A stretch of 64,000 bases of DNA, taken from NCBI RefSeq assembly GCF_003605405.2, contig NZ_QYTW02000001.1, positions 246,428-310,427 on the forward strand, given 5' to 3'. The translations under genes and the position numbers were made by a program. Each line of letters begins with the position of its first letter. Positions within the stretch are counted from its first letter, which is position 1. Below the pieces are notes generated by a model, which was given only the letters and a program-made list of their open reading frames with translations, had not been told where the DNA came from and made no database searches. This document shows positions 16,015-63,765 of the stretch, piece by piece. This stretch comes from Siminovitchia terrae (GTDB lineage: Bacteria; Bacillota; Bacilli; Bacillales; Bacillaceae_C).

Positions 16015-16031
16015 ATAAAAGCCCCCTTTTT

Positions 16032-16045: not shown

Positions 16046-16093
16046 ATTTTAAATACATTATATTGAATAAATATTGTTAAAACATCGTCAAAT

Positions 16094-16130: not shown

Positions 16131-16174
16131 AAAAAGAAAGGTGGTTGCATAGGAGCGACAAGCGCTGGCAACCA

Positions 16175-16372
16175 TCAAATGCGCCTTGGCGTATTTGCGC
16201 CCAGATTTTATCGAGCTTAAGCTCGATAAATTTCCTCTGAAAATCTGTGGCATCCGCCGGAGACTTTGACTTTATTCAGCCGGGGTTTGAACCCCCACTG
16301 AATGGAATAACAATATGAAAATTCACCTCATCACTTACAGAAGTGGAAGATTTCTGCTGAATGATATTAAAA
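16175..16372 (+). repeat. Dispersed structured repeat, copy C (full length)
   Basis: All modules are present, including the perfect inverted repeats CAAATGCGCC/GGCGTATTTG and TTTATCGAGCTTAAGCTCGATAAA. The terminal repeat reads TTTGACTTTATTCAGC on the left and GCTGAATGATATTAAA on the right. It separates the two ectoine hydrolase genes. Confidence 0.88.
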
Positions 16373-37084: not shown

Positions 37085-37115
37085 AGAAAAAAGCCTGCGA
37101 AAAAAACGCAAGCTT
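37085..37115 (-). terminator. Terminator overlapping the stop of the PuuB-like oxidase gene
   Basis: On the minus strand AAGCTTGCG-TTTTTTT-CGCAGGCTT is followed by TTTTCTTT. The stem begins at the gene's stop codon. It separates the oxidase gene from soxA. Confidence 0.75.
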
Positions 37116-39956: not shown

Positions 39957-40934
39957 TTACTGCTTTAATATTTCTTCCAACCTTCCCAGCTTTTCGTTTC
40001 TATCTTTTCTCGCTTCAATGGCTTGATCCAGTGTGATCGCAACAAACCGGCAGGTGGAAAGTGGTCGAGATTGAGCAATCAGATCAAGGTCCTGGCTAAT
40101 GACCGTTCCGATCGTTGCAAAGCCCCCGCCGGTCGTGGCATCATTTTGCAGGACGATCAATTCTTCTTCATTGGGAAACATGATTCCGCCAATTGGATAG
40201 GCAAAATCTACTACATTCGTAAAACTGCTTCCGGCTCCAAATGGAGGTTCTTCCTCGATAAAAGATACTTTTGCCCCTGTATATCGATAAGCGACCCGAT
40301 TTGATTCAGGTGAAACAGTCCATTCAGAATTCAAGAATGCCTTTAAGCCCTGGTCGCTAATCATATGCCCCTTAATTCCCATTGTTACCCTGATTTCCTG
40401 TGAACGCTCGAAGTTTGGGATAAATTCTAACGGTACAGATTTTCCTGCCTGCTTGAGAACTCCAGGCAAAGGTTCATTAATGTTCACCCTATCGCCCTTG
40501 ATTAGCTTTCTGCCTTGGTATCCGCCAATCTTACTTAATTCATAGGTTGAGCGGCTGCCCAGCACTTCCGGGACATTGATTCCTCCTGACACACATAAAT
40601 AGGACTTCACACCCTCCCGGCATGCCTTCAAGATAAGGTCATCGCCCTCCTGAACTGCAATTGCTTTCCACAACTCCACTGGACTACCATTAAGAAAGGA
40701 TTCCATCGGAGCTCCGGTCAAAGCAATGACCGTATTTTTGTAAAATGTCATTTTTCCACCGAATACAGTCATTTCGAATCCTGCAAAATCAACAGGGTTG
40801 CCGACAAGAAGATTCCCGACCATGAATGAAAATTTATCCGCCGCCCCAGACGGAGGCACCCCTAGATGATAGTTTCCCAGCCTTCCTAGATCCTGTACGG
40901 TGGTCCATAGCCCTGGTTCGTTGATTTCTATCAT
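39957..40934 (-). CDS. pxpC: 5-oxoprolinase subunit C-like protein (PxpC/KipA, carboxyltransferase family), pair 1
   Basis: This 325-residue protein has the family start EINEPGLWTTVQDLGRLG and PPSGAADKFSFMVGN. Near the end it has SNRVAYRYTG, PFGAGSSFTNVVDFAYPIGGIMFPN and LQNDATTGGGFATIG. In the PxpABC complex it acts with PxpB on 5-oxoproline; the fold is that of the carboxyltransferase part of urea amidolyase. It follows pxpB after 1 bp. No pxpA is beside this pair. Confidence 0.88.
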   Translation of the reverse strand: MIEINEPGLWTTVQDLGRLGNYHLGVPPSGAADKFSFMVGNLLVGNPVDFAGFEMTVFGGKMTFYKNTVIALTGAPMESFLNGSPVELWKAIAVQEGDDLILKACREGVKSYLCVSGGINVPEVLGSRSTYELSKIGGYQGRKLIKGDRVNINEPLPGVLKQAGKSVPLEFIPNFERSQEIRVTMGIKGHMISDQGLKAFLNSEWTVSPESNRVAYRYTGAKVSFIEEEPPFGAGSSFTNVVDFAYPIGGIMFPNEEELIVLQNDATTGGGFATIGTVISQDLDLIAQSRPLSTCRFVAITLDQAIEARKDRNEKLGRLEEILKQ

Positions 40935-41828: not shown

Positions 41829-43856
41829 CTATTTTTTGATCTTTCTCATTCGCCTGCTAATGGTGGCTGGGCTTACCCCCAAAATTTCCGATACTTTTGC
41901 CGCCGTTCCGTACTTCTTCATCCCCAGTTCAATCAACTGTGTTTCAAGCTCAGCCACTGCCTCTTTAAGCGGCATCATCTCCAATACGAGCGGCTGTTTT
42001 TTCTTAGATTCTTCCTCACCATATAGGACCTTCAAAACAATCTCGCGATCAATCCATTCTTCTTGGCTAAAAACGATTAACCTTTCGACTATGTTTTCAA
42101 GCTCCCGGATGTTCCCTGGCCACCCGTACATTTCCAGCACGGAGATGGCTTCAGGCGTGTAGCTCTTTTCTATGTTGTACATCCGCTTGAACTGCTCTAG
42201 GAAATAAACCGCAAGCGGAAAAATATCTTCCTTTCTTTCGCGCAACGGAGGGATCCGGAGAGGAATGACATTCAAGCGATAAAAGAGGTCCTCGCGAAAT
42301 TCACCGTCAGCCACCATTTCTTTCAAATCTCTGTTCGTGGCAGCGATAATGCGAACATCAATCGGGATTGTTTCCGTACCGCCAATCCGTGCGACCTCCC
42401 GTTCCTGTATAACACGAAGCAGTTTTACCTGCATATTCAGCGGAAGATCCCCGATTTCATCAAGAAAAATCGTTCCTTTATGAGCAAGCTCGAACAACCC
42501 AGCCTTCCCTCTGCGATCAGCTCCGGTAAATGCTCCTTTTTCATACCCGAACAGCTCGCTTTCAATTAACTGCTCTGGAATGGCTCCGCAATTGACCCGG
42601 ATAAAAGGAGAGTCCTTCCGAAGACTGGCAAAGTGGATTTCATGCGCGAATACTTCCTTACCAGCACCTGATTCCCCTTCAAGGAGAATCGTTGAATTCA
42701 TCTTGGCGGCTCTCCGCAGATTGCTTAGTAGCGCAGAAATTTTACCGGAACGATAAACTATCTGTTTTTTCTCCGTCTTAAATGATTGCGTACTTTGCTC
42801 TGTTTCGGTGTGAGTTGGAGCAGTAGAAGTGATATCCCGAGAAAGAATGACTACCTTTTCCAGCTTTCCTTCATGGTATACAGGCGTCGCAACTGACCAA
42901 ACTCTAGTTTGGTCAGCAGACTCCTGAATGGAAGTCACTTTCTTCTTCTGTTTTACACATAACTCAAAAATATTCGGCTGGAAAATATTTCTCCTTGTAA
43001 AATCTCCAATTTGTTTTCCAATAATCTGATCTGCTTCCTTCGTTTTCCAAAAGCTATTTAAAAACTTTCCGGCCACCCGTAGGATTGTCCCTTTTTCATC
43101 AATGACCAAAATCTGCTCATTAGAGGAGTCATATACTGCCTGCAGATCGGCATACAGATGCCGGACAAAGTCCACTTCCTGGACGGCTTCCTCGAATTCT
43201 TCCCGAAGGTAAAACATGTGTACAAGGCCTGTGATTTTTCCCTCTATTTTCAGCGGATAAAAATTACCGCTCATTTGCTTAAAATTGATTGTGCTGTTCA
43301 CACTTACAAGTGTTTCTCCATCCAGTACATTCTGCAAATCTTTCTCCATCGTCAACAGAGATTGATAATTGCGGGATAAAAGAAAAGATCCCGGCATCCC
43401 CAAAAATCTTTCCGCGGTTTCGTTCATGAATTCAATTTCATACTGACTATTCGTCCTGATAATTCCAACTCCCGCTCCATGGATAATCTCATTTAAATGC
43501 ACCAATTGCCTTTCATTCAATTGATGGCGGGAATTATTGACTGTACTGTATCCGGAGACACCACCGCTTGAATTTACCCCGATGACCACGGTCACATTAT
43601 GAAAAAATTCGACCGGAAGCGAGTCAGGAACTTTCAAAATATCATCCTTATATTGAATCTGTTCATCAAGGTTTTTTCCTGTCTCAATTTGCTCAAGTAA
43701 ATAGCCGTTTGTAATGTAGCCAATCAATGCTCCTTGCTTCTCAACAAAAGCGATATCAGTTTGCGCACTTGTAATCTTTTGAATGACCGATTTAATCGAA
43801 TAATTGTGTCCGACCACTGCTGCAATCGGTTTCAGAATGTCTTTCCAAAGAATCAA
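41829..43856 (-). CDS. Sigma54-dependent transcriptional activator (CBS-PAS-PAS-AAA-Fis)
   Basis: The N-terminus (residues 1-105) looks like a CBS pair. Two PAS-like segments follow (about 115-220 and 235-340, including GVGIIRTNSQYEIEFMNETAERFLG and LVIDEKGTILRVAGKFLNSFW). The AAA+ domain has Walker A GESGAGKE near residue 396, the sigma54 contact GAFTGA near 437 and FLDEIGDLP. The C-terminal Fis-type helix-turn-helix is AAKVSEILGVSPATISRRMRK. A TTG start follows AGGAGGG. The clear sigma54 target in this window is the promoter at 57796, before the second pxp operon, with a palindrome upstream of it. CBS or PAS domains probably sense a nucleotide or metabolite. Confidence 0.92.
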   Translation of the reverse strand: MILWKDILKPIAAVVGHNYSIKSVIQKITSAQTDIAFVEKQGALIGYITNGYLLEQIETGKNLDEQIQYKDDILKVPDSLPVEFFHNVTVVIGVNSSGGVSGYSTVNNSRHQLNERQLVHLNEIIHGAGVGIIRTNSQYEIEFMNETAERFLGMPGSFLLSRNYQSLLTMEKDLQNVLDGETLVSVNSTINFKQMSGNFYPLKIEGKITGLVHMFYLREEFEEAVQEVDFVRHLYADLQAVYDSSNEQILVIDEKGTILRVAGKFLNSFWKTKEADQIIGKQIGDFTRRNIFQPNIFELCVKQKKKVTSIQESADQTRVWSVATPVYHEGKLEKVVILSRDITSTAPTHTETEQSTQSFKTEKKQIVYRSGKISALLSNLRRAAKMNSTILLEGESGAGKEVFAHEIHFASLRKDSPFIRVNCGAIPEQLIESELFGYEKGAFTGADRRGKAGLFELAHKGTIFLDEIGDLPLNMQVKLLRVIQEREVARIGGTETIPIDVRIIAATNRDLKEMVADGEFREDLFYRLNVIPLRIPPLRERKEDIFPLAVYFLEQFKRMYNIEKSYTPEAISVLEMYGWPGNIRELENIVERLIVFSQEEWIDREIVLKVLYGEEESKKKQPLVLEMMPLKEAVAELETQLIELGMKKYGTAAKVSEILGVSPATISRRMRKIKK

Positions 43857-45664: not shown

Positions 45665-46858
45665 TTACCTCCTAATCTTGATCTTTTTAGCCAGTTCTAG
45701 AAAAGAATGTGCGTCGGAGGCTTCATCAAAAAGATCGATATACTTTAGCGCCGCCTTCATTGCACGGGCCGTCGGTTCGTATCCATCAATTTTCAGCAAT
45801 GGATTTAACCAAATAACAGCGGAAGTCTTTCTTTGAATTTCCCCCATTGCCCACGCCATATGAGTAATATCCCCAGCATCTAGACCATCGCTGGCAATCA
45901 GAACCACCGTATCTTGATGAAGCAATTGCAGTCCAAAATCCTGTACAAAGGAATAGATCGATTCACCAATGCACGTCCCTCCTCCCCAGGAATCTCCCAG
46001 TTGACTCAATACTGGAAGGTCGGCACGGCGTTCCAACAACTGATCCGTAACCCTTTTGATTTTTGTGGAAAAAAGAAAAACCTCCACATGCTTTGTGTAA
46101 TTTGACAAAGCATATGCAAACTGCAGAAAACAGTGGGCATACAAAGACATGGAACGGCTGGCATCGCATAAAAGCACAAACTTAGCCCCCTGCCTTTTTT
46201 GTTTTTTCCAATATAAACGCACAGGATAGCCACCTGTTTGCAGACTTCCGCGAATGGTTTTTCGAAAGTTGAGTCTGCTACCTTTTTTCGCCGATTGATA
46301 GGATTGCGCTCTTTTCAGTGCTATTTTTCTTACAAGAATTTTAGCCGCTGCTTCCATATCTCCCAGTTCATCGGGCGGAATGTAAGCTTGAAATTCATCT
46401 GACTGCTTAAAGGCGGTTTTTGAAGCGAACCATGACAAATTCCGCTCTTCACCAACGAATTCATTATCTTTCGATTGTGTTCCCAGCCTCCCTAAAGGAG
46501 TCGTCCCCTGCTTACTTCCCACTTCCTTTTCATGGTACTGCGCCTCTTTCTGGCCGGAAGTTTCTTTTAGCCCACTTTGTTCTTCAACACTCAGATAATG
46601 AAGCATTTCTTTACTTACTCTATTTTCTTTACTGTTCAAAAAGAACTCTTTGAACGCATGATCAAAAATTGACTGTTCCTCAATGCTTGAGCAGAGAACA
46701 AGCCGTAAACACGCCTGAAATTGGTTCCGGTTGAAAATATCGATTGTCTGGACCGCGCGGATGCTGTCCATTGTTTCCTGGGGACCGATCAAAAAGCCCC
46801 GGTTTCGCAAATGAAGGCAGAATTTGAGTATATGGTTGGAAAGTGTTCGTGTCAGCAT
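45665..46858 (-). CDS. VWA domain protein, CoxE-like
   Basis: The C-terminal half is a von Willebrand A domain with the metal-ion-dependent adhesion motif LLCDASRSMSLY and the later TVVLIASDGLDAGD. The N-terminal half contains the CoxE pattern (RNRGFLIGPQETMDSIRAVQ). It works with the MoxR-like ATPase on maturation of molybdenum hydroxylases, as CoxE does with CoxD. The ATG at 46858 has AAGGGAG at ideal spacing; the frame opens 45 codons earlier inside the MoxR gene. Confidence 0.87.
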   Translation of the reverse strand: MLTRTLSNHILKFCLHLRNRGFLIGPQETMDSIRAVQTIDIFNRNQFQACLRLVLCSSIEEQSIFDHAFKEFFLNSKENRVSKEMLHYLSVEEQSGLKETSGQKEAQYHEKEVGSKQGTTPLGRLGTQSKDNEFVGEERNLSWFASKTAFKQSDEFQAYIPPDELGDMEAAAKILVRKIALKRAQSYQSAKKGSRLNFRKTIRGSLQTGGYPVRLYWKKQKRQGAKFVLLCDASRSMSLYAHCFLQFAYALSNYTKHVEVFLFSTKIKRVTDQLLERRADLPVLSQLGDSWGGGTCIGESIYSFVQDFGLQLLHQDTVVLIASDGLDAGDITHMAWAMGEIQRKTSAVIWLNPLLKIDGYEPTARAMKAALKYIDLFDEASDAHSFLELAKKIKIRR

Positions 46859-46871
46859 GTCCAGACTCCCT

Positions 46872-47813
46872 TCAGACCTTGACCATGGAAAGAAGGTTTC
46901 CTTCTTTGATCTCTTTTTCAATCGTTTTCCAATCTTCTTGATCCTTGATAAAGCAGCCCAGCGTTTGAAGCACTGCATCCTTGTCCAACTCACTTTGATT
47001 TAGAGCCATCAAGGCAAATGCCCAGTCGAGACTTTCAGCTATGCCGGGAATTTTCGAAAGCGGCATCCTGCGGACAAGCTGCATCATATTTACGATCTGT
47101 TGCGTTAACTGATCATTGATATTTGGAATTCGTGCGTGCAGAATAGCGGATTCCTTTTCCACATTCGGATAGGTGACCCAATGGTACAAACAGCGTCTGC
47201 GAAGGGCATCACTCAGTTCCCTTGTCCGGTTGGATGTCAAAATGACGTATGGTGGATGCTTCGCACGAATGGTACCTAATTCCGGAATTGTTATTTGAAA
47301 TTCAGCAAGGGCTTCCAGTAAAAAAGCTTCAAACTCCTCATCCGCACGATCCACCTCATCAATCAAAAGAACGGGCGATGAATGCTCATCTGTCAAAGCA
47401 TCGAGAATGGGGCGGGTAAGGAGGAATGGCTTACTGAAAATAGCTGCCTCTCTCTCGTCCAAAGAAACATCGCTGTTTTCAGTTAAACGAATATGAAGCA
47501 TTTGTTTAGCGTAATTCCATTCATATAAAGCTGAATTCACATCAAGCCCCTCATAGCATTGCAGCCGAATCAGCCGAGTATTCAAAGATTTTGCCAGCAC
47601 CTTTGCAAGCTCTGTCTTGCCTACGCCTGCAGGACCTTCGATTAACAGGGGCTTATTCAGCGCTGTAACAAGATGTAATGCCGTCAATATAGCCGGATCA
47701 GTAATATAGCCTTGTTTTTTAAACGCTGCTTCGATTGATTGATCATGAAAGCTGATAAGAACCACCCCTTCTGGAAAAACTGTAAAAAGTAAAAGAAAAC
47801 AATTCGATCCCAT
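46872..47813 (-). CDS. MoxR-family AAA+ ATPase, CoxD-like
   Basis: Walker A IEGPAGVGKTELAKVLA and Walker B VLLIDEVDRADEEFEAFLLE identify a MoxR ATPase. It is the chaperone partner of the VWA protein and in Cox systems helps install sulfur and copper at the active site. The start is doubtful. The ATG at 47813 has no ribosome site, and the conserved region begins near ISFHDQSIEAAFKKQGY, about 20 codons later, with GTG or other weak starts near AAGGGGTGG. It is the first gene after the minisatellite, so its promoter lies close to or in the repeat. Confidence 0.85.
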   Translation of the reverse strand: MGSNCFLLLFTVFPEGVVLISFHDQSIEAAFKKQGYITDPAILTALHLVTALNKPLLIEGPAGVGKTELAKVLAKSLNTRLIRLQCYEGLDVNSALYEWNYAKQMLHIRLTENSDVSLDEREAAIFSKPFLLTRPILDALTDEHSSPVLLIDEVDRADEEFEAFLLEALAEFQITIPELGTIRAKHPPYVILTSNRTRELSDALRRRCLYHWVTYPNVEKESAILHARIPNINDQLTQQIVNMMQLVRRMPLSKIPGIAESLDWAFALMALNQSELDKDAVLQTLGCFIKDQEDWKTIEKEIKEGNLLSMVKV

Positions 47814-49025: not shown

Positions 49026-49883
49026 TTAAAGTAAAATAGATTTTAAGGCGCGTGCTGTATAAATTTTACATAGCTGCTCTCTATATTCTTCAGATGCGAA
49101 TAGGTCGCTTCCCATATCTGCGTTTTCTGCAGCAAGGCCGGCAGCCGAATCGATGACAGATTCTGAAGGAACCTGCCCGATCAACGCCTGTTCAACTGTT
49201 TCCGCCCGGAACACCATATCACCCGCTCCGGTGATGCCCACCTTGATATAATCGATTTTCTTGTCATTGTCTGTTCCAACTACCACAGCAACACCGACGA
49301 CAGGGTACCCTGATGCAGGGTGAAAATATTTCAAATAGGTCGATTTCGTATGTGAAGGGGGAATCGCAAATGTCACGTTCGTTACGACGCTATTCTCCGG
49401 CATCATTGTAATCAACGGCCCGATGATGAAGCTATCAAGGCTCATTGTTTCTTCTCCGTCTTCCCCTTGAAGCGTCAGTTCTGCGTCAAGAACAATTGCG
49501 GCTGCGGGCAAATCCGCCGCTGGATCGGCATGTGCGATATTGCCTCCGACTGTTCCACGATTTCTAATCTGAATATCGCCAACTTGGCGCGCAGCTTCTG
49601 CCAAAACCGGAATATACTCTTTAATCATCGGGTTGGTGGCCGCCTCTCGATGTGTGGTCATCGCCCCGACAACGATACGGTCTCCAGCTTTGCGTACGCC
49701 TTTCAACGTAGAAATCTGGCTGATATCAATCAAAGTCCCAGGCTCCGTCAGTCTGAACTTCATCAAAGGGAGCAAGCTGTGCCCGCCAGCAATCAGCTTT
49801 CCTTCCCCGTCACTTTCTTGGAGCAGTTGAATTGCCTGTTCAACAGAATTGGCACGAACATAATCAAATTTAGCAGGAATCAT
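49026..49883 (-). CDS. Molybdenum hydroxylase FAD-binding (medium) subunit, CoxM-like
   Basis: FAD-site motifs AGGHSLLPLMKFR near residue 32 and TVGGNIAHADPAADLP near 112 are intact. The subunit passes electrons from the iron-sulfur centres to an acceptor. The ATG at 49883 overlaps the large-subunit stop by ATGA and follows GGAGGG; the frame opens 11 codons earlier. The order small-large-medium is like cox-type operons with altered order. It is last before the minisatellite. Confidence 0.92.
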   Translation of the reverse strand: MIPAKFDYVRANSVEQAIQLLQESDGEGKLIAGGHSLLPLMKFRLTEPGTLIDISQISTLKGVRKAGDRIVVGAMTTHREAATNPMIKEYIPVLAEAARQVGDIQIRNRGTVGGNIAHADPAADLPAAAIVLDAELTLQGEDGEETMSLDSFIIGPLITMMPENSVVTNVTFAIPPSHTKSTYLKYFHPASGYPVVGVAVVVGTDNDKKIDYIKVGITGAGDMVFRAETVEQALIGQVPSESVIDSAAGLAAENADMGSDLFASEEYREQLCKIYTARALKSILL

Positions 49884-52228
49884 GCTTGTTCCCTCCCCTT
49901 TTGGATTGCCCGCCATACTTTTTCCGGAGTAAGCGGCATATCGATATCCGTGATGCCAAATGGCGCGAGTGCATCCACCACTGCATTCATGACGGCTGGA
50001 ATAGAGGCGGTCGTTCCAGTTTCTCCCACCCCTTTGGAGCCCAATGGGTTCACAGGGGACATAGTTTCTGTAAACGAATTTTCAATCTCAGGGAAAAAAC
50101 GTGCTTTCGGCATTGTATAATCCATAAAGGTACCGGACATTAACTGACCTTCGTCGTTGTATACGACGCCTTCCCACATGGCCTGCCCCACTCCCTGGGC
50201 TATTCCCCCATGCACCTGTCCAGATGCGGTAAGGGGGTTGATGACACGCCCAACATCATCAACAGCGATATACCGTTTAAGGTCGATTTCCCCTGTATCC
50301 TGATCAATTTCAACAATAACAATATGCGTACCGAACGGATAAACAAAGTTTTCCGGATCGAAGAAGGCTTGTCCTTCCAAAGAAGGCTCCATACCCTCCG
50401 GCAGATTCCATGCGTAGTTGGCTGCCTTTGCAATCTCTTGGAAAGTGCGCTCGCGACCAGGGACGCCTTTTACTTTAAATACGCCTTTTTCAAATTCTAA
50501 GTCTTCAGTAGATACCTCAAGCTCGTGGGCTGCAATCTTTTTCGCCTTGTCAACCACTCGGTCGGCAGCCATCGAAACCGCGCCTCCCCCTACAGCGGTG
50601 GAACGAGATCCATAAGTTCCCCATCCCATAGAAACAGCTTTCGTATCATTGAAAACGAATTCAATATCGTCCATCGGTATACCGAGCTTGTCCGAAACTA
50701 CCTGACCAAACGTTGTCGCATGTCCCTGCCCATGCGGAGAAGTTCCGGCAAAAACAGTGACCTTTCCTGACGGATGAACTCGGACGGTAGAATTTTCCCA
50801 GACTCCTCCTTGGAATCCGATTGCTCCCGCAACTGCTGATGGGCCAAATCCGCACAACTCCACATATGTAGATAGCCCGATGCCGATAAGCTTACCTTCC
50901 TTTCGAAGTTCTTCCTGCTCTTTGCGAAGTTTTTCGTAATCAACTATTTCCAAAGCTTTTTTCAATGGCTTTTCATAATCACCGCTGTCATATACAAGTC
51001 CCTGAGCATTCGTATATGGAAAAGCTTCTTTTGGGGCGAAATTCTTTTTCCTGAGTTCCAGTGGATCCATGCCAATTTCCCTTGCAAAAAGATCGATAAT
51101 TCGTTCAATCTGGTAGGTTGCTTCAGGTTTACCAGCTCCACGGTATGCATCCGTCGGGGTTGTGTTAGTATATACACCGAATGTTTCGCACGATGCATGT
51201 GGAATATCGTAGGAACCTGTAATCATCAAACCGAAATCAATAGTTGGAACACCCGGGCCCATTGTGGAAAGATATGCTCCCATGTTGGCAATATTTTTAA
51301 CACGAATTCCAGTCAACTTCCCATCATGGTTCCCTGCCAGCTCCACCTCAATGATTTCATCCCTGCCATGGTTCGAAGCCATAAAATGTTCGTTGCGTTG
51401 CTCAATCCATTTGACAGGCTGATGCAAATCACGCGCAGCATAGCCAATGAGCGCCTCATCCGGGTATACACCGATTTTTCCTCCGAATCCTCCGCCCATA
51501 TCAGGTACGATCACCTGAAGCTTCGCTTCCGAAATTCCAAGAACTCCCGAAAGAACCATTCTGTGGATATGCGGGTTCTGCGACGTGCAATATAACGTCA
51601 ACTCTCCCGTAGCAGGATGATATTGGCCTACCGCCGCCCGCGTCTCCATCGGGCTTGGTGCTACCCGCTGTACATGAAAGCTCTCCTTGACGACCACTTC
51701 CGCCGAATGAAAAATCTCTTCTGGAATTTCACCGGCTTTCCAGTGAAATGCGATATTGTTGTCAACATCATCATGGACAAGTGAAGCACCTTCTTCCATC
51801 GCCTTTTTCTGATGAACAGAAGGAGGCAACACTTCATATTCGACATCAATTAAATCAAGTGCGTCACGAGCCGTATACCTGTCTTCCGCAATGAGCATGG
51901 CAACACCATCACCTACATAACGGACACGGTCAATCGCAAGCGGGTACTGAGGAGCTTCTTTTAAATTACAGTCCGGTACAAGCCATGATGAAGGAATTCT
52001 TCCAATCTTCCCTTCCAAATCCTTACCTGTGTAGATTTTGACTACCCCTGGGGATTGCAATGCCTCATCCACATTAATGTTCTTTATCTTCGCATGTGCA
52101 TGGGGACTTCTTAAAATGACAGCATGAAGCATTCCCGGCAATTTGATATCGTCAGAGAAATATCCGCTCCCTGTCAGCAGCTTCGGATCCTCTTTCCTTT
52201 TCAAACTAGTTCCAACGACTGTTGTCAT
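49880..52228 (-). CDS. Molybdenum hydroxylase large (molybdopterin) subunit, form II CoxL-like
   Basis: This 782-residue subunit has molybdopterin motifs VPDMGGGFGGKIG, GQGHATTFGQ and TYGSRSTAVGGGA, and the catalytic glutamate in GSKGVGETGTT near residue 732. The active-site loop reads AYRGAGK near residue 362. True CO dehydrogenases have AYXCSFR with a cysteine; AYRGAG-type enzymes are the form II or BMS group of uncertain substrates, many acting on N-heterocycles. So CO oxidation is unlikely. The stop overlaps the medium subunit start, and its own start overlaps the small subunit stop. Confidence 0.92.
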   Translation of the reverse strand: MTTVVGTSLKRKEDPKLLTGSGYFSDDIKLPGMLHAVILRSPHAHAKIKNINVDEALQSPGVVKIYTGKDLEGKIGRIPSSWLVPDCNLKEAPQYPLAIDRVRYVGDGVAMLIAEDRYTARDALDLIDVEYEVLPPSVHQKKAMEEGASLVHDDVDNNIAFHWKAGEIPEEIFHSAEVVVKESFHVQRVAPSPMETRAAVGQYHPATGELTLYCTSQNPHIHRMVLSGVLGISEAKLQVIVPDMGGGFGGKIGVYPDEALIGYAARDLHQPVKWIEQRNEHFMASNHGRDEIIEVELAGNHDGKLTGIRVKNIANMGAYLSTMGPGVPTIDFGLMITGSYDIPHASCETFGVYTNTTPTDAYRGAGKPEATYQIERIIDLFAREIGMDPLELRKKNFAPKEAFPYTNAQGLVYDSGDYEKPLKKALEIVDYEKLRKEQEELRKEGKLIGIGLSTYVELCGFGPSAVAGAIGFQGGVWENSTVRVHPSGKVTVFAGTSPHGQGHATTFGQVVSDKLGIPMDDIEFVFNDTKAVSMGWGTYGSRSTAVGGGAVSMAADRVVDKAKKIAAHELEVSTEDLEFEKGVFKVKGVPGRERTFQEIAKAANYAWNLPEGMEPSLEGQAFFDPENFVYPFGTHIVIVEIDQDTGEIDLKRYIAVDDVGRVINPLTASGQVHGGIAQGVGQAMWEGVVYNDEGQLMSGTFMDYTMPKARFFPEIENSFTETMSPVNPLGSKGVGETGTTASIPAVMNAVVDALAPFGITDIDMPLTPEKVWRAIQKGREQA

Positions 52229-52755
52229 AATGAACGCACCTCCCCAACAGTTACTTTGGCTGGAATTGGCTGACCGGATTCCGCCATAATCTGTATCGCT
52301 TTTTGAACTGCCTTAACGATAAATTGATATCCTGTACACCTGCAAATGACCCCTTCCAGCCCTTCCCGAATTTCCTCCTCTGTCGGATTTGGATTTTCGT
52401 TTAACAGCCCAATCATCGCCATCATGACCCCAGAAGTACAGTAACCGCATTGAAGTCCATGCTCCTCCCAAAATCCCTGCTGAATAGGGTGCAGGTTATC
52501 CATTGTCCCGATTCCTTCGACAGTCGTCACTTCAGCCCCATCCGCCTGTACTGCAAGCATCGTACAGGATTTTACGGCATCACCGTCCACCATCACTGTA
52601 CAGGCCCCGCATTGACTTGTATCGCAGCCGATATGCGTACCGGCCAGCCCAAGCTCATCGCGTAAAAAATGAGCAAGCAGCATTCTTGGTTCAGCGTTTG
52701 CTTTTCTCTCCCTGCCATTGACGGTCATATGCACTTCCATTTTATTGTTTGTCAT
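52225..52755 (-). CDS. Molybdenum hydroxylase 2Fe-2S (small) subunit, CoxS-like
   Basis: Two iron-sulfur sites are present: the ferredoxin type GCDTSQCGACTVMVDG with a later cysteine, and the helical type QCGYCTSGVMMA...CRCTGYQ. At 176 residues it is of usual length plus a short tail. It carries electrons from molybdenum to FAD. AGGAGGAG precedes the ATG. It overlaps the large subunit gene by ATGA-type coupling and follows coxG after about 32 bp. Confidence 0.93.
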   Translation of the reverse strand: MTNNKMEVHMTVNGRERKANAEPRMLLAHFLRDELGLAGTHIGCDTSQCGACTVMVDGDAVKSCTMLAVQADGAEVTTVEGIGTMDNLHPIQQGFWEEHGLQCGYCTSGVMMAMIGLLNENPNPTEEEIREGLEGVICRCTGYQFIVKAVQKAIQIMAESGQPIPAKVTVGEVRSL

Positions 52756-52787
52756 AAGCCGCTCCTCCTACATATAGATATGGTCTG

Positions 52788-53240
52788 TTACAGGTTTACA
52801 ATTTTCTTCGCTTCTTTTTCAATATCCTTGAAAAACTGTCCCAATAACAGCTTGGCTACTCCCCCCGTGACACGCTGGCCTACAGAAGCTAGCATTCCAG
52901 TCACACTCACATCTGCACTGCAAGTCAGAATAGCCCCCGCCTCTGAATCTTCCAATCTCATGTTAGCGCTTGCACTAATTTCACCAGGCTTCCCTTTTCC
53001 ATGAACAATCAGCTTATAAAACTCCGGCTCCCTTTTTTCCACCTGTCGGACTTCAGCCGTAAACAATCCCTTCACTGGGCCTACATTGATACCAAGTTCA
53101 GCATCATATACATCCTCTTCCACTTCCTCAAAAGATTTGCATCCAGGCAAAGCCCCCCGCAACACCTCCTTATTTTGTAATGTATTCCAAAGCATTTCGA
53201 CAGAAATGCCTTTAAAAGTATGAGAGTTTTCTATTTTCAT
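52788..53240 (-). CDS. CoxG-like SRPBCC protein (membrane recruitment/maturation)
   Basis: This SRPBCC-fold protein starts MKIENSHTFKGISVEMLWNTL, with the family segments LRGALPGCKSFEEV and VSVTGMLASVGQRVTGGVAKLLLGQFF. CoxG tethers CO dehydrogenase to the membrane in Oligotropha; here it probably serves this hydroxylase. The ATG at 53240 gives the family start; the frame opens seven codons earlier with unclear ribosome sites. It is first in coxG-small-large-medium. A stem-loop lies just upstream. Confidence 0.88.
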   Translation of the reverse strand: MKIENSHTFKGISVEMLWNTLQNKEVLRGALPGCKSFEEVEEDVYDAELGINVGPVKGLFTAEVRQVEKREPEFYKLIVHGKGKPGEISASANMRLEDSEAGAILTCSADVSVTGMLASVGQRVTGGVAKLLLGQFFKDIEKEAKKIVNL

Positions 53241-53269
53241 TGGTTTGACCATTCCTTTCACTTAGCTCT

Positions 53270-53297
53270 AGGCACAAAACACAAAAGTTTTGTGCCT
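53270..53297. other. Stem-loop ahead of coxG
   Basis: AGGCACAAAAC-ACAAAA-GTTTTGTGCCT is a perfect 11-bp stem. A T-run (53302-53308) follows only on the plus strand, where no gene is read. On the minus strand it would be a hairpin in the coxG leader. The rest of 53309-53498 holds nothing I recognise. Confidence 0.6.
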
Positions 53298-53498
53298 CCA
53301 ACTTTTTTTACTAATCTTAAGGTTCACATGAGCCACTTAGCTTCGGGATCACAAATCACAGTTAGCTGGACCTCAGGGGGTTCGCGTGAATTTGACTCCC
53401 GTTAACCAGACATTTCAGCAGAGCCGTCCAATTAAGACTTGTTCAACTTTTGTCCGTTATAGTCATTTCAGACTTGATCACTAATGGTTTTTATTAGA

Positions 53499-54266
53499 TT
53501 AGCTGATGACTCCCCTGACAGGAACAATTTCTACATCATTCGCCTTCAATGCCGAAACAATCGTTTTAGCAAGCTCGGGGGCACCGGGCGTATCCCCATG
53601 GATACAAACTGTCTGTGCCTTGACAAGAGCCTCTTTTCCGTCATGAGTAATAACTTTTCCTTCTTTAACCATGCGTACAACCCGCTGGGCCATTTCATCA
53701 TAATCCTGAATTGACGGCCCCCTTCTAGTCAGCACGATTGATCCGCTTTCAGTATGCTCACGGTCTGAATATGTTTCAAGCGCAACCGGGATTCCCATTT
53801 TTTGTGCTTCTTCCCATACCTCAGAATGATTTAGGGCAAAAACGATTGTTTCTGGATTCACCTCATAAATAGCCTCCAAAACCGCCCGTGCAAGCTGCCT
53901 GTCTTCCATTGCTTTCATAAACAATGCCCCATGAGGCTTGCAATGCTGGATATCCACCTGCGCCGCTCTGGCAAATTCTCTTAGGGCTCCTGTCTGATAC
54001 GTGATATAGTCCTTCACCTCTTGAGCGGTACATGTCATATAACGACGCCCAAATCCAAGAAGATCGGGAAAGCCCGGGTGGGCTCCGATACCCACTCCAT
54101 GCTCTTTTGCTAGCTCAACGGTCCTTCTCATCACTTGCGGATCTCCGGCATGGAAACCGCAGGCAATATTGGCAGAGGTAATATACTTCATCATTTCTTC
54201 GTCATTGCCCAGCTCATAAAGAGCGAAGCTCTCACCCATATCACAGTTTAAATCCACTTTATACAT
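53499..54266 (-). CDS. pxpA: 5-oxoprolinase subunit A-like protein (PxpA, LamB/YcsF family)
   Basis: This 255-residue LamB/YcsF protein has VDLNCDMGESFALYELG at the start, ACGFHAGDPQVM, GVGIGAHPGFPDLLGFGRR, CKPHGALF and CIHGDTPGA. In PxpABC it takes the activated lactam from PxpBC and opens the ring, so for 5-oxoproline the product is glutamate. It is last in the operon pxpB-pxpC-accB-accC-pxpA, 8 bp after accC. Confidence 0.92.
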   Translation of the reverse strand: MYKVDLNCDMGESFALYELGNDEEMMKYITSANIACGFHAGDPQVMRRTVELAKEHGVGIGAHPGFPDLLGFGRRYMTCTAQEVKDYITYQTGALREFARAAQVDIQHCKPHGALFMKAMEDRQLARAVLEAIYEVNPETIVFALNHSEVWEEAQKMGIPVALETYSDREHTESGSIVLTRRGPSIQDYDEMAQRVVRMVKEGKVITHDGKEALVKAQTVCIHGDTPGAPELAKTIVSALKANDVEIVPVRGVIS

Positions 54267-54274
54267 TTCTTCAC

Positions 54275-55618
54275 CTACTTTCGTTGCTTCTGGAATTCAT
54301 CAAGAAACTTCGTTGTATACTCTCCTTTTTTAAAGCTCACATTTTCCAAGATGTCGTATAGCAATAACAGGTTGGTTGTGATGCCTTCAACCTTCAACTG
54401 TTCCAAGGCTTCTTTCATTTTCTCAATGGCTTGATTACGGTCCTCGCCATGAACGATGATTTTTCCGATCATTGGGTCATAAAATGGCGAGACCTGACTT
54501 CCTTCTTCAATAGCAAAATCAAGTCGGGCATTTTCTGGTAAAACCAATCGTTTGATTGTTCCAGGAGAAGGAAAATAAGTGTTTGGATCTTCAGCATACA
54601 GGCGGCATTCGATAGAGTGACCGTTCTTTGTGATATTCTGCTGTTGGAAGGGAAGTCTCTCTCCTGCAGCCAGCTGAAGTTGAAGTTCTACGAGATCCAA
54701 ACCAGTAATCTCCTCTGTGACAGGGTGCTCAACCTGAAGCCGCGTATTCATCTCAAGAAAGTAAAAGTTTTTCTCCCCGTCAAAAATGAATTCCATCGTA
54801 CCGACATTCGTATACTCAATATGCTGTACACCTCGGATTGCAGTCTGCAGTAGTTCTTCCCTTCGTTTTTCATCCAAATACGGCGAAGGGCTCTCCTCCA
54901 CAACTTTCTGGTTCCTTCGCTGGACTGAACACTCCCGTTCAAAAAGATGAATCACGTTTCCTTGCTTGTCCGCAGCAATTTGCACTTCGATATGACGAGG
55001 ATTACTAATCCATTTTTCCAAGAACAGATCTCCATCGCCAAAAAACGATTCGGCCTTCTGTTTTGTAGAATCGAAGGCTCTTGATAGTTCATCAGCATTA
55101 TGGACAAGCTGCATTCCTATGCCGCCCCCACCTGCACTAGCTTTTAACATAAGTGGATAACCGATTTCCTCAGCAAGACTCACAGCTTCTTCAATCGAAT
55201 TTAGGCGGCCTTCTGATCCAGGTACAACCGGAACCCCAGCCTTCTGCATCTGAGAGCGGGCTTCCAGCTTGCTTCCCATCAACTCGATCGACTTGGCTGT
55301 TGGTCCGATGAATGTGATTCCTTCTTCCTCACAACGGCGCACAAATGTGGCGTTTTCTGATAAAAATCCATAGCCTGGATGAATAGCGTCTGCATTTGTC
55401 TCCTTAGCGGCTTGGATAATGTTGTCAATATCAAGGTAGCTTTTCTTCGCCTGAGCCGGACCTACACAAACGGCAATTGTCGCTTCTTTAACGAACGGCA
55501 TCTCTGCATCCGCTTCCGAATAAACTGCAACAGTTTCTATGCCTAAACGCTGGCATGTCCGTATAATCCTGCGGGCAATTTCTCCTCTATTTGCTATTAA
55601 TACTCTTTTAAAAAACAC
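54275..55618 (-). CDS. Biotin carboxylase (AccC-like)
   Basis: The protein has the start FKRVLIANRGEIARRIIRTC, the ATP-grasp glycine loop KASAGGGGIGMQ near residue 163, and ECSVQRRNQKVVEESPSP, MNTRLQVEHPVTE and SIECRLYAEDP. It carboxylates biotin on the carrier with ATP and bicarbonate. The GTG at 55618 has AAGGAG at 8 bp; the frame opens two codons earlier. It is not beside fatty acid genes but between accB-like and pxpA genes, so it probably serves a special carboxylase rather than acetyl-CoA carboxylase. Confidence 0.93.
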   Translation of the reverse strand: MFFKRVLIANRGEIARRIIRTCQRLGIETVAVYSEADAEMPFVKEATIAVCVGPAQAKKSYLDIDNIIQAAKETNADAIHPGYGFLSENATFVRRCEEEGITFIGPTAKSIELMGSKLEARSQMQKAGVPVVPGSEGRLNSIEEAVSLAEEIGYPLMLKASAGGGGIGMQLVHNADELSRAFDSTKQKAESFFGDGDLFLEKWISNPRHIEVQIAADKQGNVIHLFERECSVQRRNQKVVEESPSPYLDEKRREELLQTAIRGVQHIEYTNVGTMEFIFDGEKNFYFLEMNTRLQVEHPVTEEITGLDLVELQLQLAAGERLPFQQQNITKNGHSIECRLYAEDPNTYFPSPGTIKRLVLPENARLDFAIEEGSQVSPFYDPMIGKIIVHGEDRNQAIEKMKEALEQLKVEGITTNLLLLYDILENVSFKKGEYTTKFLDEFQKQRK

Positions 55619-55652
55619 AGGCACTTCTCCTTTACAAAATCTAATTGATTAC

Positions 55653-55895
55653 TTATTTCAATATAGCGATTTCCTGTCCAGCGTCCAAAAGCTGCTCTTC
55701 ATCAACCAAAAACGAATCGATTACGCCATCTACTTCAGCTTTGATCTCATAGTAATTTTTCATGACCTCGACTAGCCCGATCACATCTCCCGCCTTGACT
55801 GAGTCTCCCTCATTAACAAATACATCTTGATCCGGGGATGGTTTTCTGTAAAATACTCCTGGAATAGGTGAAATAATTGTTTTGTTCTCTTCCAT
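55653..55895 (-). CDS. Biotin carboxyl carrier protein (single-domain, AccB-like)
   Basis: The 80-residue protein is just one biotinyl domain. The biotin lysine (K46) is in VEVMKNYYEIKAEVDG, with MKN in place of the usual MKM. It also has GDSVKAGDVIGLVE. It lacks the N-terminal extension of normal AccB. It lies 2 bp after pxpC and just before accC, so a complex with PxpBC and AccC is likely. Confidence 0.9.
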   Translation of the reverse strand: MEENKTIISPIPGVFYRKPSPDQDVFVNEGDSVKAGDVIGLVEVMKNYYEIKAEVDGVIDSFLVDEEQLLDAGQEIAILK

Positions 55896-55897
55896 TG

Positions 55898-56887
55898 TTA
55901 TGCCTCCTGTTGTTGCGATATAATTTGTTCTCTTATTTGCTTCATTTTGTCCTTCTCAGCTTTTCTTGCTTCAAGAGCCTCATCAATACCGACGGGGATA
56001 AAGCGTACTTTTTCATTCGTCTTCGCCTGAGCCATCTTGTTCAGATCCGGACTGATAATTGTAGCAATCGTCGCATATCCGCCTCCGGTAACAGCATCAT
56101 TTAACAAAGCAATCGGCTCGACACCATCCGGCACCTGAATGGAACCGATTGGATAACCCAAATCCACCACATTGGAAGGATTGCTTCCGGCTCCAAATGG
56201 CTGCTCTCTCTCCACGAAATCCAAGCGCTCTCCTTTGAAACGATAACCAACTCGGTTTGCTTCAGTTGTAATAGTCCAATCCAATGAAAAGAAACGTTCC
56301 TTACTTTCTTCAGTTAAGCGGTAGCTGCACAGCCCCACAACGACCCGGATTTCATGTCTTTTAGAAAATGTGGGAATTAGCTCATCAGGGACACGTGTTC
56401 CAACTTTTACTTCTCTTCTGATATCATCCCCGATTTTTAGCCCGTCGCCTGCTTGCAAAGCGCGCCCATCCAATCCACCTATGCCGCATAAAGTATAGGT
56501 AGCTCTTGATTCCATAATCACCGGGACATCGATACCGCCTTGTACTGCCAAATAGACCCTTGCTCCGCCTTTTACAAAATCAAAAGAGAGTGTATCGCCA
56601 GCTTTGATTGACAATGTTTCCCACATAGGAACTGGTTTCCCGTTGATTTTTGGCGGGATCTCTCCTCCAGTTAGCGCAATAACAGCATCCCTCTCAAATT
56701 CAAGAACAGGCCCCATATATGTAATTTCCAATGATGCTGCTCTATCATCATTTCCAACAAGAACATTACCCACTTTGTATGAAAATTGGTCCATTGCTCC
56801 AGAAGGAGGCATTCCCACTTCATAATATCCAATCCGCCCAACATCCTGAATGGTTGTTTGTAAACCCGGATTTTTCACTTTGATCAT
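55898..56887 (-). CDS. pxpC: 5-oxoprolinase subunit C-like protein (PxpC/carboxyltransferase family), pair 2
   Basis: This 329-residue protein has VKNPGLQTTIQDVGRIGYYEVGMPPSG at the start, PFGAGSNPSNVVDLGYPIGSIQVPDG and LLNDAVTGGGYATIA near the end. It is a paralogue of the protein at 39957. The fold is that of the carboxyltransferase domain of urea amidolyase. With the adjacent biotin carrier and carboxylase it could form a complete biotin-dependent carboxylase. Its start overlaps the pxpB stop by ATGA. Confidence 0.9.
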   Translation of the reverse strand: MIKVKNPGLQTTIQDVGRIGYYEVGMPPSGAMDQFSYKVGNVLVGNDDRAASLEITYMGPVLEFERDAVIALTGGEIPPKINGKPVPMWETLSIKAGDTLSFDFVKGGARVYLAVQGGIDVPVIMESRATYTLCGIGGLDGRALQAGDGLKIGDDIRREVKVGTRVPDELIPTFSKRHEIRVVVGLCSYRLTEESKERFFSLDWTITTEANRVGYRFKGERLDFVEREQPFGAGSNPSNVVDLGYPIGSIQVPDGVEPIALLNDAVTGGGYATIATIISPDLNKMAQAKTNEKVRFIPVGIDEALEARKAEKDKMKQIREQIISQQQEA

Positions 56888-57753
56888 GAGTATAACCTCC
56901 TTAGCACTTCTTCAGAAAACGTTTTCGGATTTTCGAGTACTTGTTTCGGAGTAAAAGTGATCTCCTTCGTTAAATAGCGAAACGTTCCATTCTCTACTTC
57001 TTCCCTAATGGAATCGTATTCTTCCCGCGTTACACTTCGGTATCTGAAGATGTCACCTTGTTTAGGAAATGTCATCGTATCCTGGAAGTCGTATAGCTTG
57101 CTGTCTTTTTCAAAAATTGGCGCGGCAGCAATTCCAAACAATTGGTAACCTCCGGCTCCATCTACCGGATAAATCACAGAGAAAGCCCCTCCAAGACCGA
57201 AAGCCCTTTCAGGTGTGAAAGTTCTTGGCCGGACATATTTCGGCGCTTCAATCTGCTGTTCACGCGGCACCATCTGATAACACCACGGAAGACCAGGTAC
57301 AAAACCGATCATTGTGACAAGATAGGGAGCCCCTGTCATGGCATCAATCAAAGCATCTGTTGAATCAAACCCATTGATTCGTGCAGTATATTCCAAATCC
57401 GTTGAATTGGGGTCCTGATGCCGGTCCCTGAACCGCATCAATGCCTCATGTGTCCATGGGTCTTCAAACAAAACTGGGACATCAACCATCCTTGAAGATA
57501 ATTCAAAATCATCAATAGATGTCGTCTGCTCCAACTCTTTCAGTTTTGAAATCAGCTTGTCCGGATGAATTTTTTCAGGTTCAAATCGAACCATATAAGA
57601 AGCATTCGAAGGGCAAATATCTAATATGCCTGAAAGCTGCTCCTCCTTTAATTGTTTTGTGATAGCCATCGCCTGGAAGTTCACTTCTAGGCTCATCTCT
57701 TCTGCCAGTTCGACAAAAATAAACTCATCTCCGCCATATTCGTAACGTGTCAT
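56884..57753 (-). CDS. pxpB: 5-oxoprolinase subunit B-like protein (PxpB/KipI family), pair 2
   Basis: This 289-residue protein is a paralogue of the protein at 40936, with YLVTMIGFVPGLPWCYQM, APKYVRPRTFTPERAFGLGGAFSVIYPVDGAGGYQLFG. The ATG at 57753 follows AGAGGTGA; the frame opens six codons earlier. It is first in the pxpB-pxpC-accB-accC-pxpA operon and is preceded by a sigma54-type promoter. Confidence 0.9.
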   Translation of the reverse strand: MTRYEYGGDEFIFVELAEEMSLEVNFQAMAITKQLKEEQLSGILDICPSNASYMVRFEPEKIHPDKLISKLKELEQTTSIDDFELSSRMVDVPVLFEDPWTHEALMRFRDRHQDPNSTDLEYTARINGFDSTDALIDAMTGAPYLVTMIGFVPGLPWCYQMVPREQQIEAPKYVRPRTFTPERAFGLGGAFSVIYPVDGAGGYQLFGIAAAPIFEKDSKLYDFQDTMTFPKQGDIFRYRSVTREEYDSIREEVENGTFRYLTKEITFTPKQVLENPKTFSEEVLRRLYS

Positions 57754-57795
57754 TAGCCATTCACCTCTCATTTACTCTATATTGTTATCTACATC

Positions 57796-57812
57796 GCAAT
57801 ATTCATGCCAAC
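57796..57812 (-). promoter_or_regulatory. Sigma54 (-24/-12) promoter of the pxp-acc operon
   Basis: On the minus strand TTGGCATGAATATTGCGA has GG and GC separated by exactly 10 bp, close to the YTGGCACG-N4-TTGC consensus. Transcription would start near 57784, about 30 bp upstream of the pxpB start. The window encodes a sigma54 activator next to the paralogous pxpBC pair. Confidence 0.78.
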
Positions 57813-62955: not shown

Positions 62956-63765
62956 ATGAAAAAACTTGCAATTTTCATATTAGTTATCGCCTCATTGCTT
63001 TTTGCAGGATGCAACAGCAATGATACAAGCGATAAAAGCAGCCAAGATTCAACAGAAAAAGCTAATAAAACTGAAGAAAAAACACCATTGACTGTTTCCG
63101 CCGCAGTTAGTCTGACTGACGCGCTGGAAGAAATCAAAGAACTATATGAAAAAGACCATCCAGTAGAATTGACATTTAATCTAGGCGGATCAGGCACACT
63201 AGCCCAGCAAATTCAGCAAGGTGCTCCGGTTGATATTTTCATTTCGGCCAACCAAGAATGGATGGACACGCTCGAAAAAGATGACCTTGTCAATACCTCG
63301 ACAAGAGAAAATGTAACGGGTAATAAAATCGTTTTGATCACAGGGGCAGACTCCAAAATTGATTATAAATCAGTCGATGAAGTCTCCGCGGCAGATGTGG
63401 ATCAGATTGCCATTGGAAATCCTGAAAGCGTCCCTGCTGGAGAGTATACAGAAGAAATTTTACATAATCTAAAAAAATGGGATGAAATGAAAGATAAGCT
63501 TGTATTGGCTAAGGACGTACGCCAAGTGTTGACGTATGTTGAAACTGGAAACGCCGACATTGGATTTGTCTATGAAAGTGATGCCGTGACCTCCGATAAA
63601 ATCAAGGTTTTATCAACTGTCGATGAGTCATTGCACGATCCAATCATCTACCCAGGGGCCGTCTTAGCAGATACAAAACATGAAAAAGAAGCGGAAGAGT
63701 TCCTGAAATTCCTGGAAGCGGAAGATGCACAAAGCATTTTGGAAAAATACGGGTTCAAGAAATAA
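62956..63765 (+). CDS. modA: Molybdate ABC transporter substrate-binding lipoprotein ModA
   Basis: A signal peptide with lipobox FAGC is followed by the ModA pattern: LTVSAAVSLTDALEEIKELYE, FNLGGSGTLAQQIQQGAPVDIFISANQEWMD, and VYESDAV. It binds molybdate (or tungstate) outside the cell and passes it to ModB. GGGGGATC precedes the ATG. It is divergent from the yvgK-like regulator and followed by modB after 23 bp. Molybdate supply fits the molybdenum hydroxylase encoded at 49-53 kb. Confidence 0.93.
   Translation: MKKLAIFILVIASLLFAGCNSNDTSDKSSQDSTEKANKTEEKTPLTVSAAVSLTDALEEIKELYEKDHPVELTFNLGGSGTLAQQIQQGAPVDIFISANQEWMDTLEKDDLVNTSTRENVTGNKIVLITGADSKIDYKSVDEVSAADVDQIAIGNPESVPAGEYTEEILHNLKKWDEMKDKLVLAKDVRQVLTYVETGNADIGFVYESDAVTSDKIKVLSTVDESLHDPIIYPGAVLADTKHEKEAEEFLKFLEAEDAQSILEKYGFKK

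Follow-up and report, generated by a model that had tools for sequence, protein, structure and literature searches.

A stretch of 64,000 nucleotides from contig NZ_QYTW02000001.1 of Siminovitchia terrae (hereafter the window, with all coordinates counted from its first letter) carries a minus-strand operon in which genes named after 5-oxoprolinase (pxpB, pxpC and pxpA) and genes for biotin-dependent carboxylation (accB and accC) stand beside those of a molybdenum hydroxylase (coxS, coxL and coxM). The unit is real, conserved and more specific than its family names: it is best read as a split, biotin-dependent lactam-opening module, which in this lineage has its own molybdenum hydroxylase, and for which I infer a mechanism and a substrate below. 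Judging from the sequence, I put a probability of about 0.47, a little short of even, on the operon encoding an inducible pathway in which an N-heterocycle or a cyclic imine would give a lactam and this lactam an omega-amino acid.

The run pxpB-pxpC-accB-accC-pxpA-coxG-coxS-coxL-coxM spans 57771–49026, with overlaps or gaps of at most ∼240 bases. All the genes named in the first-pass annotation were found on the common strand and in the order it gave; its span of 49880–57812 holds as a single run but stops too early, as coxM (49916–49026) belongs to the run as well. Curated models and Pfam agree on the family of every operon gene, and PxpB, CoxS, CoxL, CoxM and a CoxD-like ATPase further downstream fall below the curated equivalog cut-offs shown. 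The features of the operon are as follows.

57795..57810, minus strand: sigma-54 (-24/-12) promoter element, 5' of pxpB; 9/11 core positions
56884..57771, minus strand: PxpB-like carboxyltransferase subdomain C/D; TIGR02712 131.3 bits vs TIGR00370 75.2 (cut-off 145.55)
55898..56887, minus strand: PxpC-like carboxyltransferase subdomain A/B; TIGR02712 265.5 bits vs PxpC_5OPro 230.8
55653..55895, minus strand: AccB single-domain biotin carrier, 80 amino acids; NF005457 106.4 bits (cut-off 87); EVMK biotinylation motif
54275..55624, minus strand: AccC biotin carboxylase; NF006367 639.5 bits (cut-off 597)
53499..54266, minus strand: PxpA / LamB-YcsF hydrolase; NF003814 337 bits (cut-off 226), PF03746 316.9 bits
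52788..53261, minus strand: CoxG; PF06240 74.8 bits
52225..52755, minus strand: CoxS, molybdenum hydroxylase small (2Fe-2S) subunit; curated models, all equivalog cut-offs shown missed
49880..52228, minus strand: CoxL, form II molybdenum hydroxylase large subunit (AYRGAGK); curated models and active-site loop
49026..49916, minus strand: CoxM, molybdenum hydroxylase FAD subunit; curated models, all equivalog cut-offs shown missed

The true start of pxpB is likely the ATG at 57753, which is preceded by GAGGTGA, a motif resembling a ribosome-binding site.

Carboxyltransferase and biotin genes

For the window PxpB, the urea carboxylase model (TIGR02712) outscores the PxpB model (TIGR00370), the cut-off of which is missed. 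Two more pxpABC sets are encoded elsewhere in the 5.3 Mb host genome, one on contig C3 and one on C13, and the canonical PxpB of C3 (locus L046) scores in reverse, with 221.5 bits for PxpB and 43.6 for urea carboxylase. The same comparison for PxpC gives 265.5 bits (urea carboxylase) against 230.8 (PxpC_5OPro) in the window, and 215.8 against 238.3 for the C3 copy; both PxpC proteins lie under the PxpC_5OPro (NF045499) cut-off of 500, and the proteins of the C13 set were left unscored. Among solved chains, PxpB is closest to those of urea carboxylase and urea amidolyase, and it aligns with residues 839–1113 of 3va7; PxpC is matched marginally best by YbgK (5dud, 7.9e-50), with urea carboxylase second (7.4e-49), and AccC aligns over its full length with solved biotin carboxylases. 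The domain set of urea carboxylase (biotin carboxylase, carboxyltransferase A/B, carboxyltransferase C/D and biotin carrier) is thus complete, as four separate adjacent genes, which score separately and do not pass as a single-chain urea carboxylase (TIGR02712 cut-off 1303.85). No allophanate hydrolase was identified among the operon genes, for which no separate genome-wide search was made.

I then placed PxpC in a tree of 83 carboxyltransferase A/B proteins, built with a quick method, unrooted and carrying SH-aLRT supports only. Five rows, the two from the window and three of urea carboxylase, were labelled by hand, and the row L118 (G733) is labelled 'accB' only, although G733 has coxL. The window PxpC falls in a clade of 54 (support 93), 53 of which lie beside accB, the exception being L128, while 12 canonical PxpC rows separate with a support of 99. 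Six further accB-labelled rows stand outside this clade, four of them beside urea carboxylase and two canonical. Seven loop residues of the window protein (R227, A233, G234, P237, N239, D242 and Y245) are found in 52–54 of the 54 clade members and in all three urea-carboxylase-type references (L134, L135 and L136, of which only L134 exceeds the TIGR02712 cut-off), but in none or one of the 12 canonical PxpC proteins. The first-pass annotation had assigned PxpC the fold of a urea amidolyase carboxyltransferase, and the PxpB and PxpC scores and this loop agree with it.

Its single-domain biotin carrier is likewise borne out, by an AccB of 80 residues that exceeds its model cut-off and has a biotinylatable EVMK. 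AccB-like matches show the motif E[AVI]MK in 88 of 90 loci, a count that includes overlapping stretches and canonical biotin carboxyl carrier proteins (BCCPs); L074 has GVMK, and L003 is cut at the edge. In three loci (L057, L122 and L123) accB is present and accC is absent within the stretch. On C3 (L046, 6360–12673), the canonical pxpBCA genes are followed by a symporter-like gene and then by a 191-residue BCCP and a biotin carboxylase, a second kind of linkage between accBC and pxp genes.

Taken together, the scores, the clade, the loop, the carrier motif and the accB-only loci give this set the look of a gene-split, urea-carboxylase-like enzyme with PxpA as its hydrolase, and AccC-AccB-PxpBC is best read as a lactam carboxylase of that kind feeding PxpA. 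In view of the PxpB score, the clade and the loop, I rejected a reading of the set as nothing more than a canonical 5-oxoprolinase.

Linkage to a molybdenum hydroxylase

In CoxL, AYRGAGK aligns to the AYACSFR of CO dehydrogenase (8uem), and the cysteine loop of form I (AYxCSFR) is absent. The best curated family is CO dehydrogenase, with a score under its cut-off; that function was rejected on the active-site loop. CoxL has a loop of the AYRGAGR type, which I take to be the form II motif, with K in place of R as its last residue, and S, L and M subunits are all present.

Conservation of the linkage was assessed in 397 genomes drawn from the order, among them that of the window. The PxpC type was defined by an E-value of at most 1e-110 (66–100% identity) and the CoxL by at least 67% identity (67–100%), and the two counts are taken to come from the same draw, as their totals are the same. 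The PxpC type is present in 14 genomes and this CoxL in six, every one of which is among those 14. Excluding the window genome, CoxL is found in 5/396, all within the 13/396 with the PxpC type (hypergeometric p 1.6e-8), and the next-best CoxL proteins (44–45%) are in G744 and G390, neither of which matches this PxpC. The co-occurrence of form II CoxL with pxpBC-accBC-pxpA, on which the first-pass annotation had staked its proposal, therefore withstands the comparison it set in advance. In the genus of the window the PxpC type occurs in five of six genomes (G028 is without), and in a draw of 398 genomes across the phylum, a PxpC match beyond 1e-92 is confined to the window genome and G313 (55%).

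A scan of named genomes with PxpC returned 52 loci, sorted by neighbourhood into 43 accB-linked and nine canonical. The accB-linked loci comprise 18 from Bacillota (70–97% identity) and 25 others, from Actinobacteria, Rhizobiales, other Proteobacteria and one Natronomonas metagenome-assembled genome (MAG); the closest named matches are Bacillus sp. HF117 (97%), Bacillus norwichensis (95%), Siminovitchia fortis (89%) and Siminovitchia fordii (87%). The canonical-type loci have 34–41% identity to the window PxpC, and accB adjoins pxpC in one of these (L099) and lies ∼9 kb off in another (L098). CoxL is encoded in 15 of the 18 Bacillota loci; of the other three, L050 has lost the gene, L055 is without it, and L062 is a short contig ending in coxG. 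Among the 25 loci outside Bacillota, a related CoxL (45–46%) is found only in two Janibacter loci. A molybdenum hydroxylase beside L087 was rejected as support for the linkage, being distant (CoxL 26%) and absent at the near-identical L085. Because the gene order recurs in Bacillales well outside the genus of the window, the operon is more than a chance arrangement.

The order of the modules varies while their proximity is kept: the cox genes lie downstream, upstream (L061, L064 and L066) or behind molybdenum cofactor genes (G791). In G733, genes of molybdenum cofactor type (recognized by eye) follow pxpC2, the second pxpC of the unit, and coxL is 11.8 kb beyond pxpC. Genes for molybdate uptake or the molybdenum cofactor are also found inside the unit or close to it. 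In the window, a ModA over its cut-off is encoded at 62956–63765, in keeping with the molybdate uptake that the first-pass annotation had included, and modA is near the operon in three of four operon genomes of the same genus, the contig ending in the fourth. In G791, pxpB is closely preceded by modA and modB, both over their cut-offs, and by a modC-like gene that falls short of its own, and between pxpA and coxG are moaC and moaA (over cut-offs), a MoeA-like gene (under the equivalog cut-offs) and a MoeB/ThiF-family gene.

Two side observations concern individual loci. In L050 (Bacillus sp. HF117) and L038 (G027), coxG, coxS, coxL, coxM and coxD are gone and a coxE remnant is left, with the lactam unit, xdhC, mocA and the activator retained. 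In L074, the Natronomonas MAG (a halophilic archaeal genome), the unit adjoins a class III aminotransferase, HyuAB, and genes that by eye resemble those of a dihydropyrimidinase and a carbamoylase.

Promoter, activator and neighbouring genes

The sigma-54 element starts 39 bp upstream of the annotated pxpB start and is weak on its own; simple shuffles yield sites of at least 10/11 at 0.45 per 64 kb strand, a rate that does not cover 9/11 sites. The comparison between loci is more telling of the promoter that had been proposed here. Within 250 bp, sites scoring 9/11 or better were found in 17 of the 28 locus groups compared. Such sites lie 39–81 bp upstream of pxpB in 11 of the 12 groups with a full match to the sigma-54 activator (the window included, G533 being the exception), which supports the element as a conserved one. 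A site is present in six of the 16 groups without a full activator match, two of which (L065 and L124) have the activator gene cut by the end of the stretch, and the site at -173 in G540 is probably due to chance. None of the three groups with a MocR regulator has a sigma-54 site.

Downstream of coxM lie the maturation genes, the activator and a second pxpBC pair, which the first-pass annotation had noted, followed by two flavin enzymes; modA is on the other strand, upstream of the operon.

46872..47813, minus strand: MoxR/CoxD-type AAA ATPase, maturation; curated models, the CoxD role being suggested by synteny
45665..46993, minus strand: CoxE VWA maturation protein; PF05762
44540..45658, minus strand: XdhC/CoxI maturation factor; PF02625, PF13478
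43908..44543, minus strand: MocA-like molybdopterin cytidylyltransferase (NTP transferase); PF12804, with a putative MocA role
41829..43856, minus strand: sigma-54 activator with PAS domain; PF00158 240.6 bits
40936..41826, minus strand: PxpB2; PF02682; TIGR02712 109 vs TIGR00370 74.6
39957..40934, minus strand: PxpC2; PF02626; in its own clade of 8, travels with the activator
37114..38397, minus strand: FAD amine oxidase, possible accessory gene; nearest family L-pipecolate oxidase, 200 bits, far below the cut-off of 600
35890..37020, minus strand: FAD enzyme of N-methyl-tryptophan/sarcosine oxidase type, possible accessory gene; NF008425 461.7 (cut-off 257)
62956..63765, plus strand: ModA molybdate-binding protein; TIGR01256 234.5 (cut-off 62.5)

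The second pair is indeed present beyond the maturation genes, but it belongs to a different clade and has no biotin genes of its own: the sigma-54 activator, PxpB2 and PxpC2 (43856–39957) form a conserved trio. The window genome has a second such unit on contig C26 (L036, 9709–13632), preceding HyuA/HyuB (Pfam), and near it are genes resembling TRAP-type and spermidine-type ABC transporters (by eye). PxpB2-PxpC2 is possibly a ligand sensor for the activator and not an enzyme. The FAD amine oxidase at 37114..38397 adjoins the cluster in three of four other operon genomes of the genus. The operon is closely preceded, on the opposite strand, by a pair of genes for an ECF-type sigma factor and a DUF4179 protein (58930–60733), which three loci of the same genus (L051, L052 and L053) retain.

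Proposed pathway and related systems

In the pathway suggested by these genes, CoxSLM would add a water-derived oxygen next to the ring nitrogen, yielding a lactam; presumably it is the hydroxylase that makes the lactam. AccC would carboxylate the biotin of AccB with ATP and bicarbonate, as its domain make-up and sequence suggest, and PxpBC, the two halves of a urea-carboxylase-type carboxyltransferase, would pass the carboxyl group to the lactam nitrogen. PxpA would then hydrolyse the activated ring, with loss of CO2, to an omega-amino acid, which could enter central metabolism through gamma-aminobutyrate (GABA) transaminase and succinate-semialdehyde dehydrogenase, or a related aminotransferase and aldehyde dehydrogenase.

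The gene context of relatives points to GABA-type products. GabT beside the unit exceeds its cut-off of 506.65 in L060 (652.9 bits) and L061 (619.9), where succinate-semialdehyde dehydrogenase is just under its own of 646.35 (643.8 and 643.9). In L056, L065 and L067, close relatives in the tree, a class III aminotransferase and an aldehyde dehydrogenase stand there instead, and in L056 neither of the two reaches any of the curated cut-offs shown. The 14 operon genomes of the order have 14 GabT genes over the cut-off, in ten genomes, and five of these genes lie within 18 kb of pxpC (G439, G540, G570, G572 and G794), where ∼0.13 would be expected (36 kb of ∼3.9 Mb per genome; p 1.3e-7, uncorrected for kinship). 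As three of these five genomes (G439, G540 and G794) are without such a CoxL, the tie to GABA genes is one of the lactam unit itself. The lactam is most likely 2-pyrrolidinone or a close gamma/delta-lactam, with 2-pyrrolidinone to GABA as the leading guess, and the likely substrate of the hydroxylase is 1-pyrroline or a related cyclic imine. In the window, the two flavin amine oxidases downstream of the cluster may perform the amine step. This would allow a complete and so far undescribed route, from a cyclic amine to an imine (flavin amine oxidase), a lactam (molybdenum hydroxylase), an N-carboxylactam (AccBC-PxpBC), an omega-amino acid (PxpA) and on to GABA catabolism, a more ambitious proposal that I consider doubtful as a whole.

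A number of observations weigh against this pathway. The unrooted tree does not join the PxpC clade to urea carboxylase, and of 26 columns separating the clade from canonical PxpC, eight agree with all three urea-carboxylase types and 15 with none of them. In the PxpC2 clade, which lacks biotin genes, five of the seven loop residues are kept in 5–8 of the eight members (R227 in 0/8 and P237 in 1/8); since the loop is common in this biotin-free PxpC2, it marks kinship to urea carboxylase and not the use of biotin. Adjacency of accBC by itself proves little, because accBC also adjoins canonical pxpC in L046 and L099. Half of the ten genomes with a GabT over the cut-off have it only elsewhere, the other nine GabT genes being distant from the operon, and the window's own genome has no GabT match at an E-value of 1e-90. 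Taking 1-pyrroline to GABA by way of a lactam would cost ATP, and aldehyde dehydrogenases need none. The remaining points concern the gene neighbourhood and the absence of the hydroxylase from many loci, and bear on the alternatives.

In one of these, the ring opened by the lactam unit would be a cyclic ureide or would resemble a nucleobase (hydantoin, imidazolone or dihydropyrimidine), being more urea-like than a simple lactam, and the hydroxylase would oxidise the parent heterocycle. The resemblance of PxpBC to urea carboxylase would suit such a substrate, and ureide or imidazole rings are hinted at by NCS1-type permease genes near the unit in L064, L066, L123 and L126 (PF02133 confirmed in L066 and L123), by HyuA/HyuB in seven loci (L123, L080, L084, L086, L088, L092 and L074), and by L122 (G455, 2731–16254), where hutG/hutI/hutU-like genes on one side and a hutH-like gene on the other (by eye) flank the unit, a nucleoside hydrolase gene closely precedes pxpB, and accC is absent from the stretch. 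Against these speak the GabT genes that exceed their cut-off next to the unit, in L060, in L061 and in five order genomes, the near-threshold succinate-semialdehyde dehydrogenase of L060 and L061, and the MocR-type regulator in three groups; AccBC and PxpA are not known to be part of any hydantoinase. I regard this alternative as rather unlikely. Still less probable is that the set is one more PxpABC paralogue, a biotin-coupled one acting on 5-oxo-L-proline, in which AccBC would be bystanders or serve fatty-acid synthesis. It could account for a PxpA over the cut-off of a PxpA subfamily and for the accBC that adjoins the canonical pxpABC on C3, but the genome already has its two other pxpABC sets, PxpB is below the PxpB cut-off, the 80-residue carrier is unlike the 191-residue BCCP of the C3 set, and accB is nearby in 53 of the 54 clade members.

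The last alternative keeps hydroxylase and lactam unit in separate pathways, as neighbours only through co-regulation in nitrogen scavenging. Eight of the 14 order genomes carry the lactam unit without this CoxL, so the unit does not depend on the hydroxylase and the two are separable modules; the conserved linkage thus bears out only in part the first-pass annotation, which had read hydroxylase and lactam set as one unit, and the hydroxylase is an add-on to the lactam unit. Yet this CoxL subtype was not found without the lactam unit (6/6 in the order draw), proximity is kept while the module order differs among loci, and the diverged CoxL of Janibacter is also found with the unit, all of which leaves separate pathways with little likelihood.

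If the inducible lactam pathway is correct, 5-oxoprolinase-family genes in Bacillales, Actinobacteria, Rhizobiales and the Natronomonas MAG would be lactam carboxylases that depend on biotin, and the entry enzyme of a lactam pathway would be a form II CoxL with CO dehydrogenase as its nearest curated family, a caution against scoring such coxL genes as CO oxidisers. It would also offer testable chemistry for lactams such as 2-pyrrolidinone, with N-carboxylation in place of phosphorylation. Should the full route from a cyclic amine hold, a biotin-dependent lactamase would join the biotin enzymes, and accBC-linked genes named 5-oxoprolinase would be re-assigned.

Several known systems share features with this operon. 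Form II molybdenum hydroxylases (quinoline 2-oxidoreductase, 1t3q; 6-hydroxypseudooxynicotine dehydrogenase, 7dqx) and CO dehydrogenase have three subunits, as here, with CoxD/E/G, XdhC and MocA-like genes nearby; unlike in CO dehydrogenase, AYRGAGK here replaces the cysteine loop, and the hydroxylase is linked to a lactam carboxylase set. LamA of Aspergillus nidulans is presumably urea-carboxylase-like, and lamA/lamB are not known to be linked to a molybdenum hydroxylase. AmdR of this fungus controls lamA, lamB and gatA jointly (PMC8016842), much as pxp units here sit with gabT; the lam genes are fungal, and are likened by descriptions and not by sequence. Another report relates ycsF to lamB for the use of 2-pyrrolidinone and kipA to yeast urea amidolyase (PMC3412718). 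The caprolactamase CapAB opens a lactam with ATP, with bicarbonate in the proposed mechanisms, and is of the hydantoinase/oxoprolinase family and not similar to PxpABC (PMC8453981); ATP-dependent opening would be common to CapAB and the operon, but CapAB is described without biotin. Rhodopsin clusters of Pelagibacterales have three biotin-dependent carboxyltransferase/carboxylase genes, possibly acting on urea, and a PxpA-like gene (PMC10308929). Among the matches listed in the open-licence literature (titles and the starts of abstracts), none dealt with a Pxp set that depends on biotin or with the linkage of such a set to a molybdenum hydroxylase, which is no proof of absence from print.

Two more such systems are the 5-oxoprolinase PxpABC and urea carboxylase. 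PxpABC shares the PxpA hydrolase, the carboxyltransferase-domain proteins PxpB and PxpC and the ATP-dependent opening of a lactam, and the canonical PxpBC is assumed to phosphorylate its substrate, 5-oxoproline (PMC13274462); in the operon described here, PxpB is under its curated cut-off, PxpC has a urea-carboxylase-like loop, and AccB and AccC are part of the set. Urea carboxylase and urea amidolyase (3va7, 5i8i) share the four-domain set and the loop AG-x-x-P-x-N-x-x-D-x-x-Y, but here the domains are split over four genes, and the operon has PxpA instead of allophanate hydrolase.

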